Assembly: GCA_018398765.1 (NCBI GenBank)
Contig: JAHBMJ010003886.1
Span: forward strand, 49,911-84,953
DNA length: 35,043 bases
Reading direction: 5' to 3'
Source: Chromera velia
Lineage: Eukaryota; Sar; Chromeraceae
A model generated the notes under the pieces. It was not told where the DNA came from and searched no databases. It saw nothing but the letters and a program-made list of their open reading frames with translations. Shown here piece by piece: positions 188-24,646 of this stretch (the stretch's first letter is position 1; every line of letters starts with the position of its first letter). Both the position numbers and the translations under genes were made by a program.

Positions 188-1026
188 GGGGTGGTGGATT
201 GTCTGGGCGTCCCATTCGATCACTTGTTCAAGAGCTACGGTCAAGTGCCGGATCTCGTCAAGGTCTGTGAGTACGTATCGGCTCCGCAAGTCTGCAAGAG
301 TTCAAGGCAATAAAGAAAGTCGCTGAAGAAGTTTGAAAGACGGGTTTCAAACGGGCTGCGTCAGTATATAAGAGCATTCTCTCCATCTTAGAGTAGTTTC
401 TTGTTACTTTCTCTTTCCCTAATCGCGTTTGCAAAGAACTGTTTTCGAATAACGACGCACTCTCCGCGCATTTCGTCCATGTGTGCAGGTCTCTGAGGTC
501 GTTTTCTCCACCATGAAGGTCAGTTCACTCGATCATTCAATGAATTTGTATTGTCTGCGGAGAGCTCACCTGGCTCAGACCTTTTATTCATTTATTACTC
601 TTGTGCCGACATCCCCTTTTTGCACATGCACCTCGCCTACATATTCATTTTTGTGGGCGCATAAGTCTGATCAAAAACCCATACCAAGAGCAATCTCCGA
701 GCGCTTTCTTTTTTTGTTTTGAACAGACAGACCTACTGTTGTTTTGAACAGACAGACCTACTGTTGTTTTGAACAGACAGACCTACTGTTGTTTTGAACA
801 GACAGACCCACTCCTGGGGGGGTCAGTCTTTCTGTCTGCTCACCAACGCTCCTGCCATCCTGAACCCCGGCTTTCTGTCGTTCTTTCTTTCTTTTTTTCT
901 GCCTGCCTGCCTGCCTGAACGCGCGTTTACGCATTGGCAGGAAGTCGTCGGAGCTGACTGGGATCCCTCTCACGAGGAGGCGTGGGAGTGGCTCTGGGGC
1001 TTGGTGGTTTCTGAGCGGACGAACAA
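188..1026 (+). other. Globin domain 1, C-terminal half (helices F-H), three exons
   Basis: Exons 188-262, 489-518 and 941-1026 encode a stretch with the F-G-H pattern of protist and bacterial globins. An LG pair is followed by a candidate proximal His (residue 12, in FDHLFKSYG), then PDLVK, a hydrophobic G helix, GADWDPSHEEAW and an aromatic H helix. The VGADW...HEEAW segment matches the LG-x-W-xP-E-x-x-AW signature of the G-H corner. The A-E helices, including the distal haem side, would be encoded upstream of the window. The exon ends in phase 2 at 1026 and is completed by the C at 2199. Spacing from LG to His is two residues longer than usual, so haem binding is likely but not certain. Confidence 0.62.
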
Positions 1027-1842
1027 GTCAGTGGGTCCATGAGGTAGTGCTCAAGGAAGGGAAAGGGAGGAAAGGTTCGAGAAGAAAAGAAGGACGCTGT
1101 GTGAACACAAAGAAAGAGATCGGGTTGAGCAGAGAAGACAGCTCGTAACAAGTTATTCTGCACCGAATATAAAGTGTGACCATGTACCTCATTTCGTCTT
1201 TTCCGCTTCATCAGTGCGAATCTCTGTGTCTCTATTCCAGTCTTTGGAGTTTACCACTCATGCAAGCACATATCGTTAGTAGGCCTTCACTTGTTTTTTT
1301 GTTTAAATGAATCTGGATGACACTTTGGATAGAAAAGTACTACAGTATTCCGTTGACTAAACAAGAGCAAGGACAAACAAGGAGCTGTCCGACGAAAGCT
1401 GCCAGAATGACGTTTGACTGACGAATCACGCAACAGGCACATCCATTTTGAAGCCCTTGAACGAAGGCTTGCCCTCTCTTGCCTCAGTCAATCATACATC
1501 TGCATATTTTCCACCTTACATACATTCACGGAAGGAATTTGACATACCCGTCCTTCTTGTCTGCTCCCGCTCAGGTGGACCACAACGTCAGTCGATGAGG
1601 CAATTAACGGGTTGAAGGGTCCCGATGGACCCCAACTCGTCTTTCTGTCTTTCTGCCTATCCGACCGGCAGGCTTGCTGACACGAAGTAGAAATGCCCAA
1701 AAGAAAACAGACAGACGCACGTGCTTTGCTAAAAAAAAAGAAGAAGGAATGAAGCAAAGAGCGAAAACAAGTTTGGACAGGTCTTTTAAGAATACTTGCA
1801 CGCCCACACATGCATGCATGCGCACACTTTGACAGACACACA

Positions 1843-1912
<70 letters not shown>

Positions 1913-3914
1913 GAGAGAGAGAGAAAGCATGAGAGAGAGAGAGAGAGCAAAAGAGACAGAGAGAGAAGCAAGACAGGCATCTTCTCGTCCTATCCAAAAT
2001 CTGCCATCAAGCCAGTAAGCCTTTTGAAAGAGGAAAAGTCAAGAACATGAGAAAAAGGATCTGGTTTGTTCCCTGGGAGAGAAAGAAAGAAAGAACCAGA
2101 GGAGCAATATCCTGAAAAAATGTCTCTAGAATTGCTTCCTTCTATCTCCCGTCCGATTTTGCTTTCTCTTGTCTTCTCTTTTCTTTTCTTTTCTTCAGCG
2201 AGAACATATTCATTCGATCCCTCTGCAGAGACCGCGAAAGAGTCTTCCAAGGTTGGCAGAGTGTCGAGGCCGCCGTACTGAGGGCCCGTTCTGCGCAACA
2301 GGCGGGGGAGGCGAACCCAGCAGAGTTCTTTCTCAGCGAGGAAATGAAGGCTAAGGCTCAACACATGGAAAAACCGGAGGGGCAAGAGGAGAAAGCCGAG
2401 GCAGAGAACGCAGACAACGCCCCGCCAGGCATCGATCTGCTTTCTGCAGAGGACGATGAACCGAATAAATGCTGGTCGTGGCTGTGCGGAAAGAAAAAGA
2501 AGAGACCGACAGGGGCAGAGAGCGTGCTGAGCACCGGTTCCTTGACAAAGAAGGAGCAGAAGAAGGCTCTGGCACTGAAACTACAGTCAGCATATGTACC
2601 ACCAAAAGAAGTCACAGCGGCGGTGCTTGACGAGTTCTGGAACGAAGTCAGCGAAGCGCCGACGATTGGACAGGTTTGTCTGCCACTCTATTGAACTGAC
2701 TCTCCACACAACCCCACAGCCTTTCTAAATCTCCAATCGTTTGACTTTGGGCACTTTGAGAATGAAAGCCAACGAAAACAGATTAACGAAAAGAGATTGC
2801 GTGATTTGCTAAGGAATTTTTACCTACATGTTGCAAGCATGTTCTCAGGAGTTTTGATCTGTCTGTACACTTCTGTTCTTCACGTGCGAAAAGTGGGATG
2901 CTATGGCTTGTCTGCCTGCCTGAGGGTCCCCTGTTTTTGAGATCTGATTCCCTTGCTTTGCGTCCAGTTTCTCGGGAAGCGGGATCTGAGAGCTTCCTCG
3001 GTCTTTGTTTCCTCGCTGTCTGACGTTCTTCTCGAGATAAAGGGAAATTTCTCTGCAGTGTTTTGCTGCACGTGCTGCGTCTTTTGAAATTGGGGACTTC
3101 TGGCGCATCTGACGTGTCTGGACTTTCTTGAAATCGTGCGGTCGCCTGAATGCTGCAGGTGTTCATGAAACACAAGGATCTCTACTATGAGTCAGTGCGT
3201 GGGTGGGCATCGAGGGACGCATGCAGGGAAGAGAGAAAAAGAAAAGATGGTGACGACAGGTTCTTTCTTGCCTGACAGAGCTGCGCCGTTCCTATTTGTG
3301 CATGCACGTGTGCGGAATAGAATGGAACAAAACCAAGTGGCTGAAGGATGTAGGTGCATAAAGCGTTTCACGTTTTGAGGGTGAATTAACTATTTATGCT
3401 CGGGTCCAGTCAGAACATTCCTGTGGAGGTTTTTTCTTTCCGTCTTTTTCTTGATAGAATTTTCTTGTGCACATTCAGTTAACTACGCCGCAGGGGATTT
3501 GTGTCGCTCCCTCTTCAGTGCAGCACACGTCTACTTGATTTCACTTCTTGCGGTTTTTCTTTGGTGATGATTATGTCTAATGAATCTTTACATGTCTCTC
3601 CAGTCTAGACGGTTTCTTTCTTTCTTTTCTGACTTCCAGTCTTCAAGATTGACGCACGCAAGATTGACGCACGCAAGGACCATGTCTCTCCAGTCTAGAC
3701 GGTTTCTTTCTTTCTTTTCTGACTTCCATTCTTCAAATTTCTTTCGATGAAGAAGTCCAACCAGACTTTGTACAGGCCTGCCGACTGACTGACCGACTGA
3801 CTCTCTCCTAGCTGTCTGGTGTTTGTTCTCACGGCCTCTCGGGAGGCTCTCGTCGCTTGTGCCTATCTTCATGCGCATCCGTTTGCATGGGTCTGTTTGG
3901 TGAAAGTGTCTATC

Positions 3915-3951
<37 letters not shown>

Positions 3952-5111
3952 TTGTGGCTTGGTTGATTCTGTTTTCTGCCTGCCTTCGTGCAGAGTCATT
4001 CACGCGGTGATTGCTCGCATGGTTGCGTACATCGACTCTCCCTGGAGCATTTGGACTGACGATCCTGAGCTGGCCCTCAGACACGTGATCTTCGGGGTCA
4101 CTCCGGCCGATTTGAGGCTCTTCTGCAGAATCTACCTGCAGGTCGGTTGCATGGGCATTCGGTAATCTGAAGTTTTTGGATGTGTGTGCATTCAGGCAGA
4201 CATGAAGAATTGTTCGTGTCTCAAGAGCATTTCCATCCTTCCACATTCTCGCTCTTGTGGGCGCCATTCAGATGCACGGAGAGCACCAACTTTTTTTCGT
4301 GACCTGTATTCCTTGTGCCCTTCTTTTCTCGAATTTCTGTAGCTGGCCCTTTTTTGCACATTCGTCTGCTGCTTTTGTTTCACGGCATCGGTTCGGAATT
4401 TGCAGCCACACTTCTTTTTTTTTGTTTCTTTCTGTCTTTCTCCGTGTTTTTTGTTTCCTTCTTTCTTCCTGTCTCTCTACCTATCTGTCTGTCTGCCTGC
4501 CCTCCTTGCTGCTGCCTTTGTTGCAGTCACTCCAAAAGATCGCGAGGGAGGAATGGCTTCCTCAGTACCAACACGCTTGGACAAAGTAAGCAGGGAGGGG
4601 GACAGGCACGGGAGGGAAGGAGGGGGTCCGGGAAGGGTCAGGGGGGCGTGAATGAGCAGAGAGAGAAGCGAGTGAGTGAGTGAGTGATTTGCCGAGATGA
4701 AAGGGAATCTTCTTTTCATTTGATCTGTCGATGTTTTTGTTTCACTACTGTCTTTGGTCTTCTAGATTTCCTGCCTGCCTGCCCGCCACTCTGTCTGTCT
4801 GTCTGTCTGTCTTTCTGTCTGTCTGCCTGTCTGTCTGTCTGCCTGTCTAGTGAAGAAAAGATGATATAGTCTGTCTGCCTGTCTGCCTGTCTGTCTGTCT
4901 GTCTTTCTGTCTGTGACAACAAAAAAACAATCTGTGCAGATTCTTCAACATCGCAGCTGCCGGTCTGGCCCAATTCATTGTAGCCGGACTTGACCCCGTC
5001 ACTCGGAGTCTGATCACAGGATCACTCTCGGACCTTCAGGGTGCCCTCATGGGCAAGGCCCGGGGGCTCCGTGCGAAATGCTGCTGTGAGGTTTGTCCTT
5101 TTTTGTCCTAT

Positions 5112-5162
<51 letters not shown>

Positions 5163-6780
5163 GAGACCCGCCTCCCTCACTCTCCCTCTACCTTCTTCCT
5201 TCCCTCCGTCCCTCGCGTTTCTCTCGCTCTCTCCGACTTCTTTGTCTCTCTCAACTCTCCCTCTTTCTCTCTGAATTTCCCCCATCTGCCTCCCTCTCTG
5301 TCTGCTTGCCTCCTCACCCTGCTGCAGGTAATGATCAAAGGAGAAAGGCGAGCACCCGTCGACTGGTGGGTTTCGAAAAAAAGGATGGGAGGCACTTGAG
5401 TCAAATAAAGTGCTGAAGGCTGTGTGTGTTTTTGTGTGTGCATAGATGTGTGTATGTATGCAAGTTTGCCTCTTCATGACAGAGAGAAAGAGAAAGAGAG
5501 GAAGAGATAGCGTGTGTCTCTATGTGTCTGTTTGTATGTGAGAGAGAGAGAGAGAGAGAGGGTGTGCATCTGTATGTGCTCGTGTGTCCCCGTGTGTGAC
5601 TGAGTGAGTGAAAGAATAAATGAGAAATCGACAGCGCATGTCTGTTCATGTGCGTAAGTATGTCCGTGTGGGAGTGCGGACTTTTGTGTGTACTGTCTCT
5701 CTCTATTAATTTGAAGAGCTTTTCTCATCCTGTGGCGACGTGTGATCGCTTCTACCTTTAATTGCGACTGCATGCTGTAGTGCATACGTATGATCCCCTG
5801 ATTCTGTATCCCAGGATGATTGAACAGGGACGTCAAACTCTCGCGGGACTTTTGATCAAGGACTGCTTCGCTTTGAGGGTCAGTCATTTTGCATTTTTTT
5901 TTTTTTGATCAAGGACTGCCTCGCTTTGAGGATCAGTCTCCCTCCCTGTCCGGTTTTGTCTCTTCTGTTCTACAGTTCTATCTTTCCCTCCTCCTTTTCT
6001 TTGTGTCAGCCACGCTCTACGTCCCTGCCTTCCCCAATCCGTTTTTAGCACGCACTAGAAGCTGCTTTCTTTGTAGGACTATTTACTAACACGCAGCCGA
6101 CAAAACCAGACGGACGGGCGGGGGCTTGAAAAGCCAGAGAGACATGCATACATACAAGCAGACAGATAGATAGACAGATACAGACACGCATTCGCAAACA
6201 AACAACCACAAGAGAGACAAAAGAGAAAGGGCATGCAAAGGGATGACGACGAAAAGATGGCTTCTCTCTCTGCTATCCTTCCTTCCTTTTTTTCTTTGCT
6301 TCTTCCCATTCTATGTTTTCCTTATACACATGTATGTGTGTATGTATGTATGCGTGTGCATCTGTGTCCAGCTTAGTGCTTTTATTCAGCTGTCTTTATA
6401 TCTGTATGCAGATGAACAAATAGGGGCTATGCATTCATTTACATACAAATGGATGAATGCAAATATCTGTATGCAGATGAACAAATCGGGGGTATGCATT
6501 CATTTCCATACAAATGAATGAATGCAAATATCTGTATGCAGGTGAACAAATCGGGGGTATACTGCGGCCGCGAGATGTTCTGGGCTGTCTACGGGAAGCA
6601 CATCGTTCCTCTGCTGTGCACTGAAGCCCCAGATCTCCTGCAGGTCTTCCTGGACGGCCATATCTGGACATCGGACCTGGTCTGTCTGTCTGTCTGTCTC
6701 TCTTTCAGTGTGCCTGTCTGTGTGTTAGTCTGGCTGGTTGGCTGGATGGCTGGCTGTCTCTCTGTCTTTGTGTCTATATA

Positions 6781-6818
<38 letters not shown>

Positions 6819-7266
6819 AGTTTGCCTGTCTCCCTGCCTTTTGTGTGTCTATCAATTGGTGTTTCTGTCTGTCTCTGTGCCTGCTTCCTTCTTTTCCCAT
6901 TTCCTCCCTCCCTCGACCAGGTGTTTGAGGGGACGCGCAGGACTCTGCTCTGCCTGTGTGCCTGTGTGCTTCCATGGATTGCTTCCATGTGCCTGTGTGT
7001 TTCCATGGATTGCTTCCATGTGGCTGTGGTCGTTGCAGGTGATTGAGGGGACACGCAAGACAGTGCTGTATGTGAAGGAGCTCTGGGGGGACCTGAGTGC
7101 GCAGATTCCTGAGACGGTCCGTTCGTTCGTTTGACCTCTTTTTTTTTTCTCCCTTCAGGTTTTTTTCTGTGTTATGGGGCAGGCAATTTAAATTGGAGCG
7201 GCGAATTGAGGTAAAGCTCCCCTTCTCACACTAATGTGATCTTCGCTTCTTTCCCATACGCACAAA

Positions 7267-7332
<66 letters not shown>

Positions 7333-8323
7333 TACATTGATACGCACACATACATACGAACACACATGTTTTCACATCCACACATGCACATACAAACACA
7401 CAGGCGCACGTTTCTTTGTGTCTTTTCAAAATGCTTCCACTTCATCGGAACACTAATCAAACTAATCCTATCTGTACCGCTAGTGATACGATGGTCGATG
7501 CGGCAAACGCTCAGAAAAGCTTATTGGTGCAAGAAAAAAGATGCTCTTCCTCTTTTGCATCCTGTCATCCCTCCTGCAGGAGCTGTCCACCGAAAAAGGA
7601 AACCTGTATGACAGACCTTCAGACTTTCCACTGTCTCACCTGGTGCTGCTGGGAAGGGGCAGAATCGCTGACCACCCCGTGATCTCGTGGATCGTGGAGA
7701 CCAAATGGAAAGTGTTCGCAAGGGGAGTTTTCGTCCTGCGACAGAGCCTCTTTGCCGGAATTGTCAGCAGACGTTTTGGGCATACAGCATCAAGCGTGTT
7801 CTTATGTGAAGTTTAATGTTTGCATGAGACTCCATGCAAGTCCTCATCTCTCAGCACGCACAATCACTTTCCTCTCTGGTACCACTCGTTCATCAGAATC
7901 TGATTACAAACTGCCTCGAGGTCACCATCTAGTTCTGTGTACATTCTTTCACTCTCCCTTCTCTCACGTCTGAGGCTGTCTGCCTTTCTGCCTGTCTTAC
8001 TGTCCGACTGTCGCTGCGCCCGGAATTATTTTTTTTTTGTACCCCTCTCCCGAAACGCCCGTCTCATCTATCCGTCCTTGTGTGTGGCTGCGTGCCTCTT
8101 GGTGGTTTTCGGATGCCTTTCTTTGTACGTTTGTGTGTTGTTTGTCTGATTTCTTCTTTCTGACTGTCTTTCTTCCGATTCTCATTCACGGGGTTGCTCC
8201 TGCATGTCTATCTAATACCGATAATGTCTGAAGAAATCGGCAATGCATCTGAGTGGAAGGAAATGTTCTGCCATCGTAATTTTGGCATGGGAAAGTGAAA
8301 ATACAGTTCCTTCATTCTCAGTG

Positions 8324-8358
<35 letters not shown>

Positions 8359-11300
8359 CTTTGTCCTATGCACCCGCCTGCCTCCATGCACTGCAGGCTC
8401 TCTTCAGCTCGTTCGGGTATGTCTGGCTGGCGAGGGGAAACGCGTACGTGTCGTTCGCCTTCAGATGCGCGGCACTGGCGTGCTCGCTGCTGGTTCTGTA
8501 TCTTGAGGTGAACACCTGCTTGCGTCAGATGGAGAACGGGTTCGTGAAGGGCCGACTGCCCTACCACATGACCCTGGTCAGCTTTTCCCCTTTTTTGCGT
8601 TGTCTCCTATTCAGCGTAGAGAGCTTTTCATATTGAGATGAGGTCGAAGGTTCTTTTCCCCTTCTGGGTTTCTTTCTTCTTCCAGCGTTCTCCCAGGGCG
8701 CCTTATCCCGTGGTTCTTTCTAGCGTGCAACTGTGAAGATAAGCACTCAGAGCAAGATAAGGAGACCAAGAGAGGGCAATAACCAGCTACATCCGAAAAT
8801 AAGACAGAATGCAAAAAAGCAAATAATTGAGAAGAAGGAAGGAAAGATGGGAAAGCCGAACGAGGAAAACGAAAATGAAAGGACTGAAGAAAGACGCAGT
8901 TCAAGAAAGAGCCAAATGAACAGATAGAGAAAGACACGTGTTTATCAATAGGTTGATCGGTAGACTGAGATGGAAAGGCAGAGAGAGAGTTGGATGGTGG
9001 AAACGGGGGTCAGCACCCAAAGAGAAAAGAAAGAGCGGAGAAAGTACGCTTGCTTGTCCACCAGATGCGACAGAGCAGCCCGTTCATTCCTGTTTCAAAA
9101 TCAGAAACTCGTCAATTGTGGAAATCGGCAGCCTCGAAGAGGCACTGCAGGCGTGTATCAGATAGCGGCTCAGATTATCGGTTTCTTCCCTCTTTCCTCT
9201 GCCAGAATCTCTCCCTGCCCCCCCTCTCTCTCTCACAGACACTGTCTGTCTGCCTGTCAGTATGATTGTCTTCGAGAGAAAAGAAAAAGAAAGAACGTAC
9301 AGTCTTTCTGTCTCTCTTCCTGTCTGCCTGTCTGTCTATCAGAAGAAGAAGAAGAAATAGACTCCCCGTTTGGTTGTTTGTCCTGCAGGCTTGGACCTGG
9401 GCTGGATGGACCGTGATCGTGATGAACTTCGCTGCGTTCAGTGAAGAACTAGCCTACGGGGGGCTAGATTATCTTCTCGCCAATAAGGTGGGTGCGTGTG
9501 CATTCCTTTCTTTCTCTCTCTCTCTCTCTCTCTGTTTGTTTGTTTATCTATTTGTCAATTCACACGGCATTCGGGGTCCATTCTTGGTTCAAGAATCACT
9601 GCATTCCTCATTTCTCATTTATTCTTTCCAATGATTATATAAATGATTGCATGCGTGCAGCCCGTGGTCGAACATTTCGACAACCCAGGCACGAATCGCA
9701 TCACGATAGTTGGAGGCATAAATCTTCTGATCAGCTGGTTGATGACGATCAATCTGCTGGCTTTGTCGAAGAACATCATGTGCCTCGTCGTCCTACTCAA
9801 ACATCTGGGAGTCAGACTGCTGTCGTTTGGACTTTTTATCGTCAGTTTCGGCATCTCTCGGCACACCTTTCTGGCTGTCCGCTGGTCTGTACTCAGTGAT
9901 TGTCGATGCATGCGAACCCGAAGTTCTCTCCGTTCTACTATGCATGCTTCCATTCCTGTCTGCCCTTTGACCTCTGGTGTACGTTTTCTGTTCTCTTCTT
10001 CTTCTTCTTGCGCCTGCCCGAAACTACTCATCGATCTCTCCTCTGTCGCGTAGCAGACCACAGTCCGTCCATTGGGACTGCACCTACAGCCGATGTTTCC
10101 CCTGCTCTCGGTCTGTGTGTGTGTGTGAGCGTGTGTGTGTGTATGTGTGTGTGTGTGTGTGCAAGTGTGTGTGTTCATGTGTGTGTCTGTGTGTCTGCAT
10201 GTGTGTACTCTATCTACAGGGATTCATCACGATTGCCTTTGCCAGTGCCTTGCGCATCGTCTCTGGTCGGATGATCAAACACTTCGACGGGACCGAGGCC
10301 TCTGTTCTCAGCACCATCGGGCTGCTTGTTGGAAGCTACCGAGTGGACTTTGAGACTGAAGTCAGTGCGTGCAAGGAAGCAAGGTTCTTCTTCTTTTGGT
10401 CGCACGGATCCATCAGCGAACACATGAAGGTTTCAGTTCTACGGTTTCGTGCAGGTCCCGTCTGTTTGTGATCATTTGAAGGCTACGCCCGGACCCGTAG
10501 TCATGTGTAGTGCTTTATCTTGCATGCACCCACTCACAGATAGATTCGCTTTATAGTTTTTCCCGTGAGTCATTCACCGCTTCTTCGACCGACCACCTTC
10601 CGTTCGATCAGGTCAACTATTTTATCACAAGATTCTTCGTCCTGTCGTACATGACGATCGCGTCTCTGGTCCTGGCGAAGTTCCTTCTGGTCCTCTATAC
10701 AGACGCCGTGATGACGAAAGTGAACCCAACTTCAGAGTCGCGATGGGTCGAAGAGAACGTGGTGGAAGAGGTCGGCCCTCCGCAAGAAGGGAATAAATGG
10801 AAAGGTCGAAACGCCAGACAGAGAAAGCTAGAGAGCCATAGGGGGGGTATATAGGGGATTAACCGTGCATTTATGCATCCATGCATACATGTAAGATTTC
10901 TCACAATATATATAGCCTTCTGCCCTCCTTATTGTTTCTCCTTGCTGCTGCTGCTCTCTCTCTCTCTTTCTTTCTCTCCCTATCGACCTGTGTGTGTCTC
11001 TCTCTCATGCAGAGAGAGACGCGCTCAAACAGAGAGCCACGATCATTGACACTATTTTGTTCTTTCTGATTTCTCTGCCAAAATGTATCCAGGTAGCACT
11101 CAGTCGGGCCATTATCGTTGCCGACATCGAGAACAGCTTCACAAGGGGAAGGCTCCATCGTCTGAATGAGAAGTACATGAAAGACGTGTTTGAGGAGAAA
11201 CTGTACTTCAACAACGAGCTTGAGATCAGTCCGCAAGGGGGGGTGACGGTGGAAATGCCCCCAGCGTTCAAGTGAGTGAGCGAGTCTCTTTTTTTGTATC

Positions 11301-12534
11301 TCTCTCGACGCTCACTCCTTCTACGACGCGTAATTGATTGTGCAATCACACCGCGATCTCTCATTTTCTTCGCAAAGTGGAACACACACCGGCACGATTT
11401 GGCGGCGTATGTGTCTCTCTTCGATGAAAAAATGAAGGGAAAGAGCAGAATGTGCATGCATGCACACATGAATAGGTGGAGGACGGCAGTGCGCATGAAT
11501 GCATGTGTGTATGATTTGTTTGCATGCATGCAGATCGCCAAGTCTTGAGGTTGACGGTCACAATGACAGGAGACAGATATACGACTCCGAAGAGGGACCG
11601 GAGGTTGGTCAAAGCTTTTGTTTGTGTCTTTCCTTTCCTTGCGGTCTAATCGCTTCTCGAAGAAATCAAAAGGAAAAAAAGCGATGTTTCTCTCTCTCTC
11701 TCACACACACCACACACACACACATACACACACGCACACACACTCTTCCTCTCGACACGAAGCAAAATGGCGGCACAATAGGGATGGATGGAATGTGATC
11801 GAAAGACACCACCCATCAATCAATCACTGGTGTCGCTGCACATTTGTCAACTTAATTCAATTCGCTCTCATCTCCCTTCCCTTCCCTTTATTGCAATCAT
11901 ATATGAGGATTTGCAGGTGCCCTGGCCAAAGGAGACAGCCAACGAGAAGGAGCTGGCAGGGGACTCGGACGGGGCCAACAGCGATGCCTCTCGGGAGATG
12001 AAAATGGTCTGCGACAGCATCAGCTCAGTGGAGAAGGCGATGAAAAGCCTCTCCACACTGATGGCCAAAATCTCCAGAACGGTCAGCCAGCCATGACTCG
12101 TCTTTTGTTCCTTCCGACGTGTGGAAGGAGGGGTCAGGGGGAAAGGGGGAGAGGTTATTCTTCTTCTGTAATAACAGAACTGCCGCCTCCAGAAGGAAGG
12201 AATACACACCCATTCTTTGCGAGGCACCTGCAGAGGCAGGCATGTGATGAAGATAATTTGTTAAAAGCGATCGAGCCAATGAATGAATGAACAAACGTCT
12301 CTCTCTCTCTCTCCCTCTCTCTCTTGTGTGGGGTGACTGCAGCTGAAGAGCAGCGGACTCCAGGAGCACGGGGACGGGACTTCGATGGGAGCTTCCAATA
12401 CTGTTGGGACAAACGGGGATGCTCCTTCAACTTTCGCAGGGACCAAAATGAGAAAGAAAAGCAAAGAGACAGACAACCAGACAGACAGAAAGATGCAGCC
12501 GCATTTACCGCAAAGCAGACGAGTTTCTTCCTGA
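188..12534 (+). CDS. Tandem-globin TRP/polycystin-like cation channel, 5' partial, 22 exons visible
   Basis: I assembled this gene from GT-AG exons 188-262, 489-518, 941-1026, 2199-2673, 3159-3190, 3994-4141, 4527-4585, 4940-5090, 5328-5365, 5815-5878, 6542-6679, 7039-7116, 7580-7762, 8397-8576, 9389-9487, 9661-9840, 10220-10360, 10612-10719, 11093-11271, 11534-11603, 11917-12081 and 12343-12534. Phases agree at every junction and the total is 956 codons plus TGA. Numbering from the first visible residue, the order is globin 1 C-terminal half (1-63), charged linker (65-179), globin 2 (about 180-320), pre-S1 region (to about 504), six membrane helices (505-749) and a charged tail (756-956). 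It probably sits in a membrane and conducts cations, with the globins on the cytosolic N-terminal side as haem/gas or redox sensors; that role is inference. The start codon and first globin half lie left of the window. Uncertain points are the end of exon 10612-10719 (a later donor near 10770 is also in phase) and whether any small exon was missed in the 1.2-kb intron 1027-2198. Confidence 0.8.
714..813. repeat. 25-bp tandem repeat, four copies
   Basis: The core GAACAGACAGACCTACTG recurs at 721, 746, 771 and 796 with exact 25-bp spacing; the last copy diverges (cccactcc). It lies in the intron 519-940 of the channel gene, upstream of the pyrimidine tract of the next exon. Confidence 0.95.
1830..1975. 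repeat. Compound (CA)n/(GA)n microsatellite
   Basis: A CA run is followed directly by GA runs with ATGAGAGAGA interruptions, inside the large intron 1027-2198. All open frames here are low-complexity artefacts. Confidence 0.95.
2199..2673 (+). other. Exon with inter-globin linker, Cys-Trp/polybasic motif and start of globin 2
   Basis: This is the longest exon of the channel gene (158 codons plus the completing base). Its first third is a likely helix with many Arg and Glu, followed by an acidic Glu/Ala-rich stretch. In the middle lies an unusual motif, CWSWLCGKKKKRP (codons around 2470-2510), where two Cys and two Trp abut a run of basic residues. Such a cluster is compatible with lipid modification or peripheral membrane contact, but nothing in the sequence proves that. 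The last 43 residues (from about 2545) form helices A-B of globin 2, ending in FWNEVSEAPTIGQ. The acceptor is a clear pyrimidine tract ending at 2198 and the donor is GTTTGT at 2674. Confidence 0.75.
3591..3741. repeat. Direct duplication with 90-bp period in an intron
   Basis: About 58 bases starting with CATGTCTCTCCAGTCTAGAC at 3591 recur from 3681, nearly identical for their whole length. Between them GATTGACGCACGCAA is itself repeated twice in tandem. The array is in intron 3191-3993. Confidence 0.92.
3919..3951. repeat. (TCTG)n array before an acceptor
   Basis: About seven TCTG units on the sense strand, 40 bases upstream of the acceptor at 3993; they may serve as part of its pyrimidine tract. 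Confidence 0.9.
4793..4915. repeat. Two (TCTG/CCTG)n arrays
   Basis: Runs of TCTG with TTTC and CCTG variants at 4793-4851 and 4869-4914 in intron 4586-4939, sense strand, just ahead of the acceptor at 4939. Confidence 0.9.
5112..5161. repeat. (CT)n microsatellite
   Basis: CT run opening a roughly 200-base pyrimidine-rich intron (5091-5327). Confidence 0.9.
5851..5948. repeat. Duplicated exon end with destroyed splice donor
   Basis: The last 28 bases of exon 5815-5878 plus its donor (5851-5885) recur at 5914-5948 with two mismatches in 35. In the copy the donor GTCAGT reads ATCAGT, so only the original is a functional donor by consensus. Confidence 0.9.
6401..6556. repeat. 65-bp tandem repeat that copies a splice acceptor three times
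   Basis: TCTGTATGCAG followed by a GAACAAAT core starts at 6401, 6466 and 6531, exactly 65 bases apart. Only the third copy runs into the open exon (6542-6679). The first two keep AG but continue into intron sequence. Confidence 0.93.
6680..6822. repeat. (TCTG)n-rich intron
   Basis: TCTG runs at 6680-6700 and 6781-6815 in the intron after exon 6542-6679, with TGGC-rich variants between them. Confidence 0.88.
6921..7038 (+). other. Degenerate partial copy of exon 7039-7116
   Basis: After a good acceptor (ACCAG ending at 6920) the sequence reads VFEGTRRTLL in phase 0, matching VIEGTRKTVL of the used exon at 7039. The likeness fades after about 32 bases into a duplicated TTCCATGGATTGCTTCCATG stretch, and no convincing donor follows. 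It looks like a decayed duplicate exon; a rare alternative exon is possible. Confidence 0.6.
7268..7332. repeat. Compound (CA)n/(GA)n microsatellite
   Basis: CA run passing directly into GA and GACA units, in intron 7117-7579; the same CA-then-GA order as near 1850. Confidence 0.95.
8326..8356. repeat. (CT)n microsatellite
   Basis: CT run 40 bases before the acceptor at 8396, sense strand. Confidence 0.9.
10112..10204. repeat. (GT)n microsatellite
   Basis: Interrupted GT run directly ahead of the acceptor at 10219, in intron 9841-10219. Confidence 0.9.
11093..12534 (+). other. Cytosolic C-terminal tail of the channel
   Basis: Exons 11093-11271, 11534-11603, 11917-12081 and 12343-12534 encode the tail. 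It starts with the post-S6 helix, continues with a charged helix (RLHRLNEKYMKDVFEEKLYF) and acidic spacers, then a heptad-like helix from about residue 867 (MVCDSISSVEKAMKSLSTLM) that could form a coiled coil and help tetramer assembly. The last 63 residues are polar and basic (KMRKKSKETDNQTD) with no recognised domain. The stop is TGA at 12532-12534. The final exon is the least certain, because its sequence is simple and only phase and splice consensus support it. Confidence 0.65.
11687..11744. repeat. (CT)n/(CA)n microsatellite
   Basis: Short CT run passing into an interrupted CA run in intron 11604-11916. Confidence 0.9.
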
Positions 12535-14690: not shown

Positions 14691-17600
14691 CTATAGCGGG
14701 GGACCCTGAGAGCCCAAGAGAGAGTCCAAACCGCCGCCCCCAAGAGGCGCAAGCGGAGGGGGGAGTCCGGGTCCTCCCGAGCCTCTCCGTCCGTCAGGCG
14801 GGCCTCCTCCACCTCCCAGCAGGGCGTCCAAAGCAGGGGGGGCGAGAGGGGGCGGGGGTGGTGCCAGGGGGGGTGCTGGCACCGGTCCTCGCAGCGTATC
14901 TGAGGGAAGGGGAGGTGGAAGTGCGGTGTCGGCGTCTACTCCTCCTCCCCCTGCAGGACCCAGGAGAGAGTCTAGACCAGCGCCTCCAATAGGGGACCCG
15001 GAAGTCGCGGGCACAAGCGGTGGGGGTGCAAATCGTTCCCTTATTCTTCGCCTGTCTGCTTCTCTGGTTGCTTCCCGTTCTCGTTCCCTCTCCCTCATGT
15101 CCTCTCTCTCCGCCTGGTCGTCATGCTGTCTGGTCTCTTCCTCTCTGTATATGGTCTCTGTTCGTCGCTGGTTGGCCTCCTGCTTCTTTTTGAACCTTTC
15201 AAGAATCGTCTGAGCAAGACCGCCAGAAGGAGGAGATAGGGTCTCTGCGGGGTCGGAAACTGGGGGGGGTTCAGTACGAGGGGGGGGGTGCTCGGGCGGG
15301 GGTGTAACTTTGTCGGCAGTCTTTGGAGGCAGAACAGAAGGGGGCTCTACAGCACTTTTTCTGCGCCCTCCGGAGACTGTCTCCTTCTCTGCTTCGACGC
15401 TGTTTCTCCGCGTGTCCGCAACTCTCTTCTTCTCTTTCTCTTCAGGGCGAGGAGCTGCAGGGGCAGGCACAGGAACAGGAGGAGCGCCAGGAGCGGGCTC
15501 AGAGGATGGCGGCGAGGTCGGAAGGACGGGTGGGGGCTGCTGTACAGGGGGTGCAGGGGAGGGGGTGGACGGTCCGGGAGCGGCTGAATGATCGTCTTTC
15601 TTTGCTGCTCGTGTCTGGGTTTGAGACTGGGCTGGGGCGGTTGGAGCGGGGGTGGGCGAAGGGGAGGTAGATTGTTTGTCTTTCGGTTTTGCCTTGGATT
15701 TTGCTTTGGGAAAGAGATTATTGAAAGACAGAGTCGACGCAAAGGAGAACGACGCATCTCCCCCCTGTGTTGGGGCTGGAGAGGGAGACGGTTGCTTTGA
15801 GGGAACAGCGGAAGAATAAGACTGAGAGAGGGATTCAGGCCTAGATGATGCAACAACAGGCTTCTGTTTCTTTTGTTGGGATGAGGGCGTTGACCTTCCA
15901 CCTGCGCCTCCTCCTTGCTTGTCCTTCTCTCGCGCTAGACTGACCAAAGGACCGAATGGATCCTCAACCTTTTTCTCTTTCGCCTTTTCCTTTTCCTTCT
16001 GCTGCTGCAAAGACGGTGGGGGCACCGAAGAAGAAGGGAAACTTGCCCAGTTGGAGGATGGACCACCAGTCAGAGACGAGAACGGGCCTCCTGCCTGAAC
16101 AGGAAGGTTGATGCTGCCTGTCGCTGCAGAGGCCGGCAGGGTGTCTGCTGCCGTAGACGACGGTGGGGGGGCCTTGGGAGCAGGTGTCGAGGAGACACCA
16201 GGGGCGGGAGCGGGGGGTGAACTTGGTTCATCAGGAAAGATGAAGGAGGAGAAGTGCGCAAACTCTGGAGGGTCCTCGGTCTGACTCTTCCGCCTCCTGT
16301 GCTTCTTCTTCTCTTTTCCGTGGTGACGGCTCGAGGGAGGGGGAGGGGTGGGCCCGTCGTTGATTTCTGGCGGCACTGCAGCGGGGGCACTCTCATTCTT
16401 CTGTGCCGAGGGGGAGACAGGGTTGCTTATTGGGACTAAAACGGGACGCCCCCCCATCGGGCTCGATTGGTCTGTTTGGCCTGCTGTGGGTCGGACAGTC
16501 TGCTGCGGCTTCGTTGCTGGAATGTCCGTGGATTCCTTTCTCGGTGCTTCTGGTGGTGACTGCGTTTCCTGCGGCCGAGTCTGTACTGCTGGGGAAGACG
16601 CTTGGGGGGTGGGGGCCCCCTCGAGCTCAAAAAAATCAATCGCCGCAGGAGGCGAGCCCCCTGTGTCCCTCTTGCCCCTCTTTCCTTTTGAAGAAGATTT
16701 CTTCCCCCTCTCCTTCTCCTTCTCTCTCGTCTTCTCTGTCTCCTCTGCCGGGGGGGCACCGACTGCTGGCGGCGTGACCACAGGAGGGGCAGGAGGAGTC
16801 GCGTCCGGAGTGCCCGTTTCTGGAGGCGGAACAGGAATTGCAACTGACGGCCGTCTGCTTTCTTCAGCGATTGGCGCTGTGGGTTGTGTTTCCCCCCCCA
16901 GAATATCATCGAGAAGGTTTGCATCCTTCGGACGGTCCTCTTCAGGCTGCCCGTCTGATGGAGGACGCGGGAGGGCTCCAGAGGTGGGCGACGGCCCGAG
17001 ACCTGGGAGGCCCTTTTCCTCTGTCTCCTCTCCACCTGCGGCTGTGGCTGCATTCTCAGGAGAGAGATCTCCCAAGGCCCTTGCAAGTGCAAGGAGCGAA
17101 GTGGGGGAGGGGGCAGCTGCAGAAGCGTCGACATCACCAGCGGACCTCCGCCGCTGGTCTTTAGGTACTTCTCCCTGAGGAACGTCACCTTCATCTAGTT
17201 GCTCGCCCCCCTCATTTTCCTCCTCTACTTCCTTCCTCGACTTCTGCTTGCCCCCGTGCTTCCCTGCAGTTTTCTTCCCAGCGGAGGAGCGATGGGGAGC
17301 CGAAAGGGGAGACGCGGGAACCTCCACCTCATCTGCATCACGCCCGTCTCCTGTGTGTCCTTTTCCTTTTTTTCCGTCCCCCCCTTCATCTCGTTCATCG
17401 ACAACAGGCATCTTCTTTTTCTTGGTGCGTCGAAGGCGATCACCTGAGGATGCCACACGAAGCTTCTCCAGATCAATGTGAATGGAGGGCTTTCCTTTTT
17501 CGGTCCTTCTCCCCTCCTCATACTGTTCTTCCTTCTCTTTGTCTTTCCTCCTCTCTCTCCCTTTCCCCTTCTTACCCTTCCGTTCCTCTCCCTCCTCCTT

Positions 17601-20600
17601 CTCCTTCACTCCCCCTTCTTTGGGGCTCTTCCCTCTGCTCCCCCCGGCCGTCCCTGTGTGATCCCCGTGTCCATCCTTTCCCGTCTCCTCCCAGTCCCCT
17701 TCCACCTTCTTTTTTCGTCTCCTGGGCCTCTCTTTTCCGGCCGCTGCTTCCTCCCCTCCCTCCGCCCCAACGGCAAAGTGAACGTGCTGACTTTCACCGT
17801 TGGCAACACTGAGCTTATGGCCTGAATGTGGGGAGACGGGAGAATCACTCACAGATACCCCAAAGTCGTCCCCCATGAAGAATGAGACGGCAGCGGGGTC
17901 GGACACAGGACCCCCACCCGCAGGCCGCTCTGCCGCTTGCGACAGGGCCGAAAGACCAGGCCCCGCTGGGGCTGACTGGAACTGTTGCGTGCTTTGCAGT
18001 GGGGTCTGCAACTGCAACTGCTGCTGCTGGTGGTGGAGTTGAGGCTGTTGCACGTAGATGAATTGCTGCTGCTGTGAAGGATGTTGGAGATGTGGGTGAC
18101 CAGCGGTGAGGGTGTGACGGAACGGCGGTGTGTGCGCAGCATGGCCAGGCGGGGTGATCTCTCCGAGGCTATCAGGGGCGGGGGCGGTGGCTAGAGGTTG
18201 CTGCTGCGTCTTGAAGGTGTGGAGGCCTATTTTGAGGAGTTGCTTGTGCGCTGTGTCCAAGAGGGAGTCGAATGCGGTCCTGTTCAGAGGGGTGCGTGTG
18301 GTCTGTCGCATATTGCTTCGACCAGTGAGGCCACTCGGAGAAGGTCCAGAAGGCTCCGTCTGCACGAATAAACAAAACAAAAAATTCAGGAGATGCATGG
18401 GGGGGAGCGGTGGGTGACAGACAGGGAGGATGAGGGGAGTTCGGGGAAACGGGCAAGCACAGCAGGGAATAGACATACATTCAAGGTTTGATCGATCAAT
18501 TTGCCTGCCAACGAGCGAGCCACTGAAGGAAGGGAAGGAAGAAATGAAGGAAGAAACGGGAAAAGTGCTTGAATCAAATGCACCGTCCGTAAGTGTCCCA
18601 AGACTCTAAAACCGGTCAAAGGGTTTCTTTCCTTCCTTCCTTCCAACCCGCTTACACTACCAGATACGGTGACATACCGATTGGAGCTAAGAAAAAAAAG
18701 TTGCCGATTCAATTGGCCAATGAAGCCCTGGCTGTCTGCCTGACTGACTGACGTCTGAATCATCCCAGTTTCCGCTAACGATGGGAATTTCAGCATGGGG
18801 TGAGATGTGCCGCTCCTTCTCTTTCACCCCTCCTTTTCCACTCATCCTTTCCTTTTCGACACCAGCAACAGGCTCCCTTTCTTTCCTCTCTCCTCCGATT
18901 GTCTCACCATGCATTTGACTGGGCCTTCTCTCCTCCACCTCAGCACCAGACACAACAAACGGGTTGGTGGAACCCCCCCGGGGGTATGCCCCCTCCGCCT
19001 GCTGGGTTGAGGGGGCCTGCTGCACGAGTGTGAAGGGATGGGGATGGGGACCGCTCTGTTCCCCTCTGAAGGAGACAGACGCAGACGGAAAGGGGTGCTG
19101 CCTTGGAGGCGGTATCCTCCCACCAGTGGCGTGTTGATCCGGGGGACTGTCTTCATCTGTCAAGAAGCCCGGATGGGAAAAAGACATCTCACTCCCAAGC
19201 TTCGAAATATTGGACTGCGTCGGAGTCAAAAGAAAAGGACCCTGCTCTACCCGTTGTCCAACCGCCCCCCCGGACTTCGAAGGGTGGTGAGAGAGGAGAG
19301 GGGGGGCGAGACTAGTTGCCTGGCGGGTTGTCGGAGGGGTAGTGCCTCCTATCCCGAGTTGCTGAGAGACCCCCGGAGGGAGCCCTCGGGAGTCTACCTG
19401 GCTGGGACCCAGGAAGGGGGAGGATATGCCCGTCAGACCCCCCCAACTAGAAGCCGGCTGGCTCAGAGGAAGAGGGGAGAGTTCGTCACCGTCGGCGGCG
19501 GGCCTGTCTCTGAAGTCGCGAATGCCGGCAGGGTCACCGGGGAGGGGGGGGGGCTGTTGAACTTGATGTCCCCCCACTACTCCTTCCAGCGGCACGGGGG
19601 CCGGCATGGCAATTTCGCCTAGTTTGGGGGGGATCGTCTCTGTCTCGGTATCTTCTGCCTCTGCCGCCTTTCCCCTCTGATCATCCCCATCATCCTCCCA
19701 CCACTCAGTGCCACCCCTGCCGTCATCCACTGTCATCGAAATCCCACCCCTGTCGTCCCCCCCTCGAAAAGTCGGAAGCGGGCCCCCCCCTGACTGAGCA
19801 AGAGGTGCGGTTCTGTTCTCTACTTGCAAAGGGGAGAGCCTTGCTTCGTTGGGTGACGAAAACGCAGAGAAGCTGCCCGTCCCCCCTTCCAGGCTTCGTG
19901 CTGCCTCGACCAGCAGGGGGCCGAAAGGATCGATGCCGTCTACCTCCCCCGTCCCCCTCATTCCCATCTGACCGCTCTGCCTCTGAGTGCCCCCCGTTCG
20001 ATCAAGTGGGGGCCTTGAGGGAGCAGAAGGCGACGGCGTACCTCCGTACTCAGGACCTTCTTTGTGGTGCGGAAAACCGAATGGTGCGCGTCGAGAGTGG
20101 ACTGTACTGGCTCCTGGTAGTGTCGTTGGAGAGGGTGCAAGGGAATCGGGGAAAGACGGAGTGGGCGCCCCCTTTGCCGAGGGGATTTCATTTTCGTCCG
20201 GGCCCTGTCCTAGGAGGAGGGCCGTTAGTTGGTCTCCGAGATCAACCTTCGCGTCGGGGACGGGGGGGGGGGCGAGCTCCTGAGGGACAGGCAAGGCACC
20301 TGGAGTGTCAGCCGGCAGGGGGGGAACTGACACATCAGCCTCAGAAATTGTGGCCCCAGCGCCTATCTGACCTTCTCCCTCTCCGTCTCCTTTCTCATAC
20401 AAGTTGCCTGGCTGCGTCTGTCTGGCGGGTTTGTTGGAAACCGACAGCGAAGCTACAGAGGCAGAAATGTCAGACCCAGCTGCATTCCCAATCTTCTCCA
20501 AAGCTGCAGAAACGGCAGCCTGCACAAGAACGGCACTTGTCGTCCGCATTTTTTGTCTTTCTTTCTCTTTCTCGTCCTTCACCATATCGCCTGCCTGAAT

Positions 20601-23600
20601 TGAGGCATCGGAAATCTCTCCCTCGGCACTTTTCTGCCCCTCGGCCTGCACCTCCTTCTTTTCTTTCTCGGGCTGTTCAGCATTCTTCGCATTTTCCGAT
20701 TCTACCCCTTTCCCTTGCTGCACTTGCTCTGACACTTCTATCTCTCCTACCTCCCCCCCACGGTTCTTTCTCGATCCCTCTCCTTCCGCACCCCACTCCG
20801 CAGAAAACTCCCCTGTCTCGGCTTTCAACGTAGCTGACGCTTCGGCTGCCATGCGAGCGCAAACCTCCGCGTCGATTTCATCAGCAGCAACGACACGGGA
20901 AGCGCCTGCCGCCTCCTCACCACCCGGGGGGACCCTTTCGTTCCCCGTACCCTTCTCGGGCGTCGGACTCTCTAGCCTCCCCTCAGCTGCCTCCCTTTTC
21001 AGCGCCAACGTTCCCGCCTCCCCTCCCAAATCCTCACTCTCCCTTTCCCTTTCCCCCTCTGCGAGCCACCACTCAGAATCACTACTGGGTGTCACGTCCC
21101 CATACAAATTCACAGGAGAACCCCCCGACCCAAGGGGGGCCTCGACCTCCCCTGCAGCATCGCTACTCTCCGTCAAGATTTCAACCACCTGCAGGTGGCC
21201 CCGGAAAGAGTCTTCTTCCCTTTCTGCGGACTGTTCTGCAGGTGGTCTGGGATGTGCTCCCCCTTCTTCACTCGAAGGTGGGGTCTCAACCAAAACCCCG
21301 GATGTCCGTACAGCCACAGTCTCAGGTTCTAATGTTGCAGTTTTGGGAGGAGGTGACAAGGTGTCACCACCACCTTCCCCTTCAGCAACAGCACTCTGAC
21401 GCCCCTCTCTCTCTCCCTCTTCTCCCTTTTTCAAAGAATCCCCAAAAAGCGAATTGGCCAACTCGGGGGACATCCCAAGAATCGACGACGCATGCTCTTC
21501 CTCATCTGTCGGTCTCTTTTCACCTCCCTTACCCTCCTTTTCCCTTGCCTTCCTCGTCTGGTCACCCCCCGCCTGCCCACCCACTGGGACAGGCGTGAGG
21601 TCCAGGACGTTCAGACCTTCCCCGTCTTGCCTCGCGTCGGCACTCGGGGGATCGATACGGGGAAGAACGGTTTCAAACCGCGCCCACATATCATCACTTA
21701 CCCCCTCGGCCCTCGCCACCCCCTCGACACCAGCACTCAAATTTGAGGGCGACAGCTGCTTGTGCTTCACCGGTCTCACCCCATCGTGATGATCCGGACT
21801 CCCCACTCCATCCGGAGGGGCCTCCTTCTCTGGTTCAGTGGAGACTCCCGAAGGGAACGGGTGGCCTGTTGGGGTTGGTAGGGGGCGGGGGGGGGCGGGC
21901 TGACTCTCCCCGCTTCCCTTCTTCTCTAATTGCCCTCCGGCAGAAACATCACCCCCATGGTCAGAGGAGACGGCAAACGGATTGCGGTCTTCACCCTCCC
22001 CCACTAGGAGACCGTCCCTTTCGTCCCTCCAACCCGCAGCGTCCTCAAACGCAACACCCCGAGCAGCAGAAGCAGAGTCTGCCTCACGACGTTGCCCCCC
22101 TCCCTGTCTCCTTGAAGGAGAAGGAGAAGGAGGGGAGAACTCCAGAGCGACGTGCAGCTGTGCCGACTCTTTCATTTCGTCCACTGTGCAAGGCAGTGTC
22201 AGGGGGTTGGAAGGAGACGCGGACAGACGAGCGATGGGAGGTGCAACGACAGAGAGAACATACTGAAGGGTCGAGTCTGTGCACTCGAAGACAGACAAAG
22301 GAACTGCCAACTCGCGGACAGCCGGCGGTGCAGAATGGCCCACCCCACCATCCCATTTCCTCACCCCCTCGAGGGCTGCTGCGCCTTTGCACCCTCCGTT
22401 TGTTAAGACCCCGAGCCTAGTTTGCTGCATGGCATGCAACCATACACACGGAGGGGAGGCGAAGTGATTGTGCATATGCATATGCATGCAGGTCCACAAC
22501 GACTGCCAGAAAGTTCAGAAACTGTCCGAAGACAACGTTGACATAGGAGAGGACAGAAAGGGCAGAACGCCGACACAACCATACAAACTCACTCACAGAT
22601 ACATGAACACAAAGAGGGGGGAAGGGAAGGGAGTCCCAAGATACAGTCAAACTGAACAAACAATGGAGTGACGCAGGGGGGAAAGAACTGCCCCAAAAGC
22701 CTCCGGAAAGATGGCAAACAGACACAAGAGACGACCACAAACGGAGAGGGACGCCGACGAGACGAACAAGCACACCGAGCAACAAATCAGATGACAGAAA
22801 AAAAACTGGGTACATCAACATATGCACATAGAGAGGGAGACGAGAAAAGAGGGCTCACCAAGCGGTCTTCTGCGCCAGCTGCAGCAGTACTTGCGCACAG
22901 CCCAGGAAAGCAGAGAGTCGACAGGTCGAAGGGTCGCGCTTTCTGGTTCGTATTGTCTTTCTCGAAGGCTTCTGCATTCCTGACGAACTCGTTGAAATCG
23001 TCACCCCTGACATCCTCCAGGAGGGGAGGGGCCTGCACTTGGGAGTCTGCAGTTTGGGGACGTTTCAGTTTCTTTCGACACACAGCGACACCCTCCTGTG
23101 AGGTGACTATCACGGTTGATGGAAGCCCTGTCAGGGGTGACCGCTGCATATGCAGGGGTGATGAAAGCGGTCGGGCAGGATGGGTCGGAAGGTCTGCAGG
23201 GCTAAGGGGCGGTTCTCCTGCGGGGTCTTCTTGGCCGATGGGTTGGTAGAATGATGTGAGGAGGGCCTCCAGGGGTGCATCTTCGGGAAGTGTCAGGGGT
23301 GGGGGGCCCTCGAAGGGGGTGGACTGCAACCACTCTCTTCTAGTGAAGGTCAGGTCAACGGGGGCAGTGCCGAAAAGCGAAGAGAGCATCCGCATGCGTG
23401 ATGCTTTCTCTTCAGCTGCTGAGGGGAGAGCAGAGTGCGGATGAGCGCCTTGATTTTCGAAAGGTGAAACAGGGCGACGTCGAGGGGAAGCCAGAGCCCG
23501 AAGAATGGCCCTTTCCTCCCTCTCTTTTTCTCTGAGTTGCGACTCGACTGCCGACTTTGCGGATCGGACAGTACGAATTCTTCTTTGGATGAACGCTTCG

Positions 23601-24646
23601 ATGTCGGACTCTAAAAACGAAATCCGGCCATCCGCCCGTTTATGCCTCGAGGCGAACTCCCCTTCTCGGCTGTACAGGTGAACGCCCCGAGGGCCCACAG
23701 ACTGCAGAACCCGCCCCTCCTTCCTCTGCAACGATTGTCCGTCCTCCTCCCCCACTCTTTCCCAACCATTCGAATACGGGCCCTGATACGGAGAAAGCGC
23801 GCGGGCGCTACGGTGTGGAGAGGACGTGGGGGACCTCGGGAGCGATGAAGGGGGGTTGAAAACGGGGACAGACGGAGCAATGTCGGGAAGAGAACCCATG
23901 AGAGATCTGGCTCCTCCCATCTCCACCCGGATTGCCTCGAATTGGAGACGCCCGCTGTGGAGCAACCAACCGATTGCTTGCCGCAACTTCCGCATGATCT
24001 GCTCGTTTCTTCTCTTGTGGAAATAATGAAAACACTTGATCACACCCGCGTGCTTCCGTTCTGCAGCAAGGTCGAGTGCGGTTTTGCCTCTGAAATCTTT
24101 CTCAGCAACGGAAAGCTTTGGGGGCTGCGCAATGAGATAGGGATCTGTTTGAACGTCGGGGCACGGATTTTTCTTGTGTTCCCAGGCTGAAACCGTGGGC
24201 ATTACTGTGAAGTGCTCGGGCTCTTTCAGCCACGAAATGTCTTTGATCAGCTCGGCGCTCTCATACAGAAACAGTTCGTGACCCAAAAGAAGGTCGACAG
24301 ACCGGGTGAAACCCTTTTCCGAAGCCTCCATGAGAGGGGTGCGCTGTAGGTGTGTGTCCTGTGCATCTGTGCGCAGAACAAGACGGTAGAGGGGGTGCTG
24401 GAGAAGAAACTCAATGACCTCATGGTGGTTTCTACTCGCTGCAAAGTGGAGCGGGGTACAGCCAGAATCGTCCAAGGCATTCAGAGTGGACAGCAGACGG
24501 GCTGGGGGCTCCCTGCTGCCCGCCAAAATTGCTTTCACATCCCCCAGTTGGTTTCGCAAGCAGGCTGTGTGAAGCGGCGTGTGACCGAACCGGTGGGCGG
24601 GCACGCACTCAACAGGCGCGTTTTTTCGGAGCGGGAGTGTGAGCAT
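14691..24646 (-). CDS. Giant ankyrin-repeat protein with endocytic-type motifs
   Basis: Three exons on the - strand: 24646-22859, 22424-18753 and 18359-14691, all joined in phase 0 with GT donors (GTGAGC, GTCAGT) and CAG acceptors, giving about 3042 residues. Residues 19-45, 58-85, 99-125 and 186-212 are ankyrin repeats (HTPLHTAC, CTPLHFAA, RTPLMEAS, KTALDLAA). A basic helical stretch follows, then over 2500 residues of Pro, Ser, Glu, Lys and Gly-rich disordered sequence. The disordered part has pairs of short motifs: DPFGPL twice (near 15955 and 19925), NPF twice (21975-21983 and near 18960), WxxF twice (WARF near 21680, WASF near 16045), and LDSLLG, LDALLG, LDSLLG at the C-terminus plus LLDDILGG near 16910. 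Animal and plant clathrin-adaptor partners use such motifs to bind AP2 and EH domains, so an endocytic scaffold role is plausible inference. The start is the first Met in an open stretch reaching 24688; an upstream exon cannot be excluded. Confidence 0.75.
22859..24646 (-). other. Exon 1 of the ankyrin protein (596 codons)
   Basis: Carries all ankyrin repeats visible. The third and fourth repeats are separated by about 60 residues containing VSAWEHKKNPCPDVQTDPY, so the repeat stack is interrupted. After the repeats, KRRNEQIMRKLRQAIGWLL is an amphipathic basic helix, and residues from about 350 include a likely coiled coil (AVESQLREKEREERAILRAL). The donor GTGAGC starts at 22858 on the - strand; reading through it would stop about 24 codons later. 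Confidence 0.75.

Follow-up and report, generated by a model that had tools for sequence, protein, structure and literature searches.

Does a stretch of the Chromera velia genome encode a single protein in which haemoglobin-like domains precede a TRP/polycystin-type ion channel, and could such a globin gate the pore? The stretch analysed here, 35,043 nucleotides in length and hereafter called the window, spans positions 49,911 to 84,953 of the forward strand of contig JAHBMJ010003886.1. It forms the end of that contig (C3460) in an assembly of 177.8 Mb and 4,040 contigs, and it opens in the middle of a gene on the plus strand. A preliminary description of this DNA had joined 22 exons in frame, and the model was rebuilt exactly. 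The exons, between 188 and 12534, form a single frame of 973 residues that ends in a stop codon, every intron is of the GT-AG type, and spliced alignment of the 973-residue protein back to the window returned the identical 22 exons, the last one minus its stop codon. The joined globin and channel gene model is therefore confirmed as a real observation. The gene starts upstream of the window, which is immediately preceded by a run of N, with a possible ATG-containing first exon beyond it (L002). We give a probability of roughly 60% to the reading that the product is a globin-coupled ion channel, in which a ligand or redox change at the second globin would open or close a TRP/polycystin-type pore.

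That the globin and the channel reside in one protein was borne out by the order of domains in paralogues, one of which lacks introns over the joint. The spliced models of C2203 and C3864 show the same globin–linker–channel order and contain no stops, with 581 of 794 and 467 of 730 aligned positions identical to the window protein. Intron positions and phases agree with those of the window gene at 16 of 16 sites in C2203 and at 16 of 17 in C3864. Exons 4–20 recur in C2203, and exons 1–3 recur in C3864 with their lengths of 75, 30 and 86 unchanged. The models are flawed in places, with extra residues at exon ends in both and one misplaced intron in C3864. The third paralogue, C2621, has an intronless frame of 487 codons that comprises globin, linker and channel entry. 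Profiles built without C2621 locate the globin at residues 124–245 (124.8 bits), the linker at 250–367 (167.2 bits) and the channel entry, which runs from the end of the linker through pre-S1 into S1, at 333–436 (101 bits); the Pfam Globin score of this frame is 23.3 bits against a cut-off of 22. The 22 short exons of the window gene would suit an artefact in which two adjacent genes were wrongly merged. However, this explanation was rejected on the uninterrupted C2621 frame and is highly improbable, given also the introns and order common to the paralogues. The divergent relative C2259 likewise carries a globin before the linker (Pfam 25.6 bits), with Phe at CD1, Gln at E7 and His at F8. The outer exons of its spliced alignment are noise, and the solid part is one frame scoring 28.7 bits against an alignment of 11 globin 2 copies (A2). 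As a control, the window globin 2 query scored 101.5 against the real C2259 sequence versus 68.5–78 against five shuffles of it.

The globin that carries this argument, globin 2, comprises residues 200–331 and is encoded at 2605..5027 on the plus strand, within exons 4–8 (2199-2673, 3159-3190, 3994-4141, 4527-4585 and 4940-5090). A globin profile match within residues 180–320 had been set beforehand as the test of this assignment, and one was obtained at residues 258–308 in a Pfam scan of the full protein (PF00042, 25.1 bits against a cut-off of 22); the domain excised from the protein scored slightly under the cut-off, at 21.6 bits. Searched alone against the Protein Data Bank (PDB), window globin 2 has as its best match HGbI of Methylacidiphilum infernorum (3ubc, E-value of 0.0018). 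The profile of A2, which contains those 11 of the 18 models in which the whole domain is covered, matches HGbRL (1.3e-10), HGbI (1.6e-9) and flavohaemoglobin (1e-7), so that F-type globins are its best match. In the remaining models considered for A2, the domain is partly covered (C3948, C132, C289 and C2153) or not covered (C2536, C1929 and C2259). PF00042 was detected at E≤1 in 10 of the 11 excised domains. The proximal His at F8 (His263 in the window, 4082-4084, plus strand) and a Tyr at E7 (Tyr231, 3183-3185, plus strand) are present in all 11 aligned copies, and the CD1 Phe (Phe224, 3162-3164, plus strand) in 10, with Trp in its place in C731. The E7 position was taken from HGbI by its residues Tyr29 (B10) and Gln50 (E7), as given in passages of PMC4476040. 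Complete globin 2 domains were read in these 11 genes and in C2259, and E7 is Tyr in 11 of the 12 and Gln in C2259; since this distal residue differs, the copies may be tuned to different ligands. Protoglobin, the S-family profile, does not appear in the Pfam listings for the window protein or the excised globins, and no FAD/NAD reductase domain was revealed when the 973 residues were scanned with Pfam. The likeliest reading of globin 2 is a globin of the bacterial single-domain/flavohaemoglobin type with a predicted haem.

The three segments compared are under purifying selection, which constrains globin 2 most strongly. Among three close genes, nonsynonymous divergence (dN) is 0.06–0.08 in globin 2, 0.12–0.14 in the linker and 0.24–0.39 in pre-S1 and the channel, with synonymous sites near saturation. 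A globin more constrained than the pore suggests that the globin does something, and gating is not thereby specified.

Exons 1–3 (188-262, 489-518 and 941-1026, plus strand) encode the C-terminal part of another globin domain, globin 1, covering helices F, G and H, as indicated by the rebuilt model, the exon lengths in C3864 and globin profile matches; in the model its N-terminal part lies upstream of the window in sequence that reads N. Most of exon 4 (2199..2604, plus strand) encodes a charged spacer between the two globins, which is open in the C2203 and C3864 models. On its own, the partial domain reaches 13.1 bits with Pfam Globin (E-value of 0.14). A four-copy profile (A4), composed of window globin 1 and three paralogues, aligns with globin 2 over 42 columns (hhalign probability 92.1) and finds nine PDB sequences at E≤10, eight of them globins (best E-value of 0.00033). 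No F8 His was found in the four copies in either of two alignments, in a region of uncertain register: the F8 column holds Phe, Phe, Phe and Met in the hidden Markov model (HMM) alignment to HGbI, and Phe, Phe, Tyr and Trp in the joint MAFFT alignment. The F8 status of globin 1 is uncertain because the HMM alignment shows a His close to the F8 column, two residues ahead of it in the window copy, and one ten residues ahead of it in C2621; a register set by eye places His at F8 in C2621 only. The preliminary description had proposed one partial and one complete globin, arranged as tandem haem-globins. Both domains do match globin profiles, whereas globin 1 seemingly lacks the F8 His, and the tandem haem-globin claim is not supported as written. 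Globin 1 was looked for in seven paralogues and is credible in C3864, C1946 and C2621 and partial in C3489; it was not found in C2203, where the upstream sequence is mostly N, and the strings of very small exons obtained for C1757 and C3646 were taken as noise. Globin 1 is probably a haem-free domain that would serve dimerization or coupling.

The globin does not stand directly before pre-S1, as had been described: a linker of approximately 125 residues (332–458) intervenes, encoded at 5028..7116 on the plus strand by the end of exon 8 and exons 9–12 (5328-5365, 5815-5878, 6542-6679 and 7039-7116). It is similar across the 12 copies that could be aligned (A3, 12 of 18 models; the remainder are incomplete or poor) and bears the conserved motif DGHxWxS ... 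ELWGD. Its ankyrin signal is weak, with Ank_2 detected in 3 of the 12 linkers (best E-value of 0.0012) and a score of 18.7 bits in C2621, under the cut-off of 27.3. The linker profile matches 11 PDB sequences, the best being KIDINS220 (0.00036, with no single stretch passing alone); two rows named as ankyrin lie at E>1, and others bear no relation to ankyrin. Pattern scans of prokaryote and virus collections (with a single pattern in the case of the prokaryotes) gave 7 and 39 matches, of which tblastn confirmed none; no relative of the linker was detected there.

The channel part follows on the plus strand. Exon 13 (7580..7762) encodes pre-S1, with the motif HP...KW..F, and the start of S1, as placed by the model, the paralogue alignment and the C2621 profiles. 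Exon 14 (8397..8576) encodes the end of S1 and S2 (hydropathic regions at residues 503–533 and 533–562), exon 15 (9389..9487) the probable S3, placed by the model with hydropathy under the threshold, and exon 16 (9661..9840) S4 and the start of S5, on hydropathy and the paralogue-profile alignment to TRPV3 and PKD2. The end of S5, the pore loop and the filter LLVGSY are encoded by exon 17 (10220..10360), where the paralogue profile aligns with the PKD2 pore LGD, and S6 by exon 18 (10612..10770; hydropathy peak at residues 729–747). Five channel regions exceed a hydropathy of 1.2 and S3 lies below it; a stretch of globin 2 (residues 299–323) also exceeds this value. Exons 19–20 (11093-11271 and 11534-11603) encode a cytosolic tail, conserved in paralogues, that ends in YDSEEGPE. 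Exons 21–22 (11917-12081 and 12343-12534) extend the tail to the stop codon and are placed by open frame and splice signals alone: the alignments cover C2203 up to exon 20 and C3864 to a point short of exon 21, so that there is no corroboration from paralogues. The tail motif FDxxxExxPxGG ... YDxEEGPEV (11093-11603 in the window) is common to divergent paralogues.

A profile of the seven copies read through S6 (A1, with the C3864 and C2033 models trimmed after S6, where they are misread) shows a clear match to the TRP/polycystin superfamily over S1–S6, finding polycystin-2 at 1e-12, TRPV3 at approximately 1e-9, and TRPV6 and TRPV1 at approximately 1e-7. Among the best 60 of 203 matched PDB sequences, which were inspected, 59 are polycystin-2, PKD2-like 1 or TRPV, and one is named 'Inactive', which we take to be an insect TRPV. 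Some TRPV3 rows extend from pre-S1 to past S6, and PKD2 rows extend from S3 to S6. Ion_trans was detected in one of the seven paralogues (E-value of 0.057). The described TRP/polycystin channel is hence upheld for the seven-paralogue profile, and not for the window protein alone, which matches no Pfam channel profile. Where polycystin-2 has LGD in its filter, the window has VGS, and Asp is absent from that column in all seven copies; calcium selectivity is therefore not implied. The filter of TRPV channels is acidic.

The gene is a member of a family. At least 22 contigs, that of the window among them, carry matches to the globin, linker or pre-S1 that reach E≤1e-3 in one search or more (C3460, C2203, C3864, C2621, C1757, C3646, C2536, C3948, C289, C1929, C2259, C2033, C3449, C132, C3489, C1946, C731, C2153, C1217, C3831, C2669 and C2176). 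Seventeen relatives were modelled in addition to the window gene, and C1217, C3831, C2669 and C2176 are known from search matches alone, the globin match of C2176 having an E-value of only 0.27. C1929 (92178-92065, minus strand), which is closely related to C2536, is probably a decayed copy; its linker exon model has two in-frame stops. The C2153 model fits poorly in the globin. This contig also has three serial linker-exon matches of equal score, identity and length (6395-6571, 7350-7526 and 8183-8359, minus strand), which may be tandem exons used alternatively or the product of a duplication in the assembly. In all, the window gene is one of about twenty related genes in the genome. A six-frame search of the genome with PF00042 missed the fused globins, even the unsplit one of C2621; its sole listed match, with one candidate scored, is on C3421.

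As a globin-coupled ion channel, a reading that builds on the sequence identity of globin 2, the channel homology, the domain order, the single frame and the conservation, the protein would place a haem-binding globin and an ankyrin-like coupling linker in a cytosolic N-terminus, followed by a six-helix pore subunit, presumably in a tetramer. Binding of O2, NO or CO at globin 2, or a redox change of its predicted haem, would shift the globin helices, and the shift would pass via the linker and pre-S1 and open or close the pore. Several points weigh against this reading. The C2621 frame reaches only pre-S1 and S1, the remaining channel reading N, and either the window protein or C2203 served as the template for the spliced paralogue models, which biases them in that direction. 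The unusual Tyr at E7 means that the ligand cannot be guessed. Searched alone, the 360-residue channel part of the window gave no PDB match at E≤10 and none in Pfam, PKD_channel was detected in only two of the seven paralogues (best E-value of 0.0022), and the PDB match of A1 lacks a reversed-profile control. The filter has Ser in place of the Asp of an acidic selectivity filter (LGD/GxGD); cation entry is therefore likely only by homology. Single-sequence structure prediction of the C2621 frame gave a mean predicted local distance difference test score (pLDDT) of 46 and was not used. An exon-fragment alignment (A5) intended for a deeper C2621 prediction was visibly misaligned and was discarded.

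The globin might instead be joined to the channel without gating it, either as a haem-bound local enzyme or scavenger (an NO dioxygenase, a superoxide source or an O2 store) or as a haem-free assembly domain comparable to the N-terminal ankyrin repeats of TRP channels. The flavohaemoglobins among the solved globins matched, the seeming lack of the F8 His in globin 1 and the ankyrin-like part within the linker would agree with this. However, the F8 His of globin 2 is kept in the 11 aligned copies and C2259, a reductase domain is missing from the Pfam results for the in-window part, and neither of the other two segments compared is as constrained, and we consider a non-gating globin unlikely. 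A transmembrane part that acts as a receptor without conduction, or that responds to some other signal and lets no ions pass, is more doubtful still. This reading would account for a filter without an acid and for a pore region that diverges among paralogues, but some TRPV3 rows that align from pre-S1 to past S6, and the PKD2 rows over S3–S6, argue against it.

Several characterized systems resemble the putative globin-coupled channel in part. Polycystin-2 and PKD2L1 give the best channel profile match, over S3–S6 and the pore, but have no globin and possess the filter LGD rather than VGS. In polycystins, S1 and S2 are separated by a large extracellular domain, which is not seen in this gene. 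TRPV channels resemble the protein from pre-S1 to past S6 in some TRPV3 rows and in an ankyrin-like part ahead of pre-S1; they have no globin, and their six well-formed ankyrin repeats contrast with one weak repeat here. Globin-coupled sensors (HemAT and its relatives) share an N-terminal globin, the presumed sensor for a C-terminal output, which is chemotaxis or an enzyme in those proteins and a pore here. HemAT and its relatives use S-family globins. The best matches of the globin 2 profile differ in other respects: HGbRL (globin and Roadblock/LC7, PDB 3wfw), described in passages of PMC4476040 as a putative globin-coupled sensor whose globin is N-terminal, has a Roadblock domain as its output rather than a channel, and HGbI (3ubc, 3s1i) has Gln rather than Tyr at E7. 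A flavohaemoglobin-like protein of this genome belongs to the same broad globin lineage, with a reductase-like part, recognized by eye, in place of the channel; its globin lies on C3421 (84539-84856), inside an open frame of 454 codons that resembles flavohaemoglobin in translation.

In the open-access literature, no globin–channel fusion appears in the titles or the starts of abstracts among the matches listed, and 'globin domain' and 'TRP channel' occur together, among the matches listed, in one paper, a review of thermosensation (PMC2814129). The main text of the chromerid genome paper (PMC4501334) has no word starting with 'globin', 'ion channel' or 'TRP', and one 'hemoglobin', in relation to Plasmodium. 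Excerpts of a report on Symbiodinium haemoglobins describe them as having no transmembrane areas (PMC3631397), and those of a 2006 globin census give the chimeric globins as flavohaemoglobins and globin-coupled sensors, with apicomplexans listed as being without globins (PMC1457004). On sequence grounds, we rate the protein as a putative globin-coupled sensor whose output is a channel; it falls outside the classical S lineage and would be new as such relative to the literature matches listed.

Other open frames lie near the gene. Upstream, L002:1-836 is open sequence that resembles an aldo-keto reductase by eye. Within the window, long low-complexity frames occupy 14691-18476, which is without a Pfam match, and 18687-22499 (both on the minus strand), and over these frames (14691-22499) the GC content rises from approximately 0.48 to 0.54–0.63. 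Approximately 10 kb from the channel gene, a 619-codon frame (22787-24646, minus strand) encodes strong ankyrin repeats (Pfam Ank 2.6e-16). A 777-codon frame (25879-28212, plus strand) encodes an EamA transporter domain after approximately 380 residues that are acetyltransferase-like by eye and have no Pfam match, and a methyltransferase-like frame follows at 29546-30649 (plus strand; Methyltransf_25, 5.3e-07).

Globins are known sensors for enzymes and chemoreceptors, and a globin built into a channel would, within one protein, couple O2, NO, CO or redox state to a current across the membrane. Such a protein would serve as a ready model for the conversion of haem ligation into pore opening. 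We propose, tentatively and with less confidence than for the window gene itself, that the family comprises about twenty directly gas- or redox-gated channels in one genome, which would be the first with a haem-globin as a built-in gate sensor. Chromera belongs to a photosynthetic lineage adjoining the apicomplexans, and there the design may have expanded to about twenty genes.

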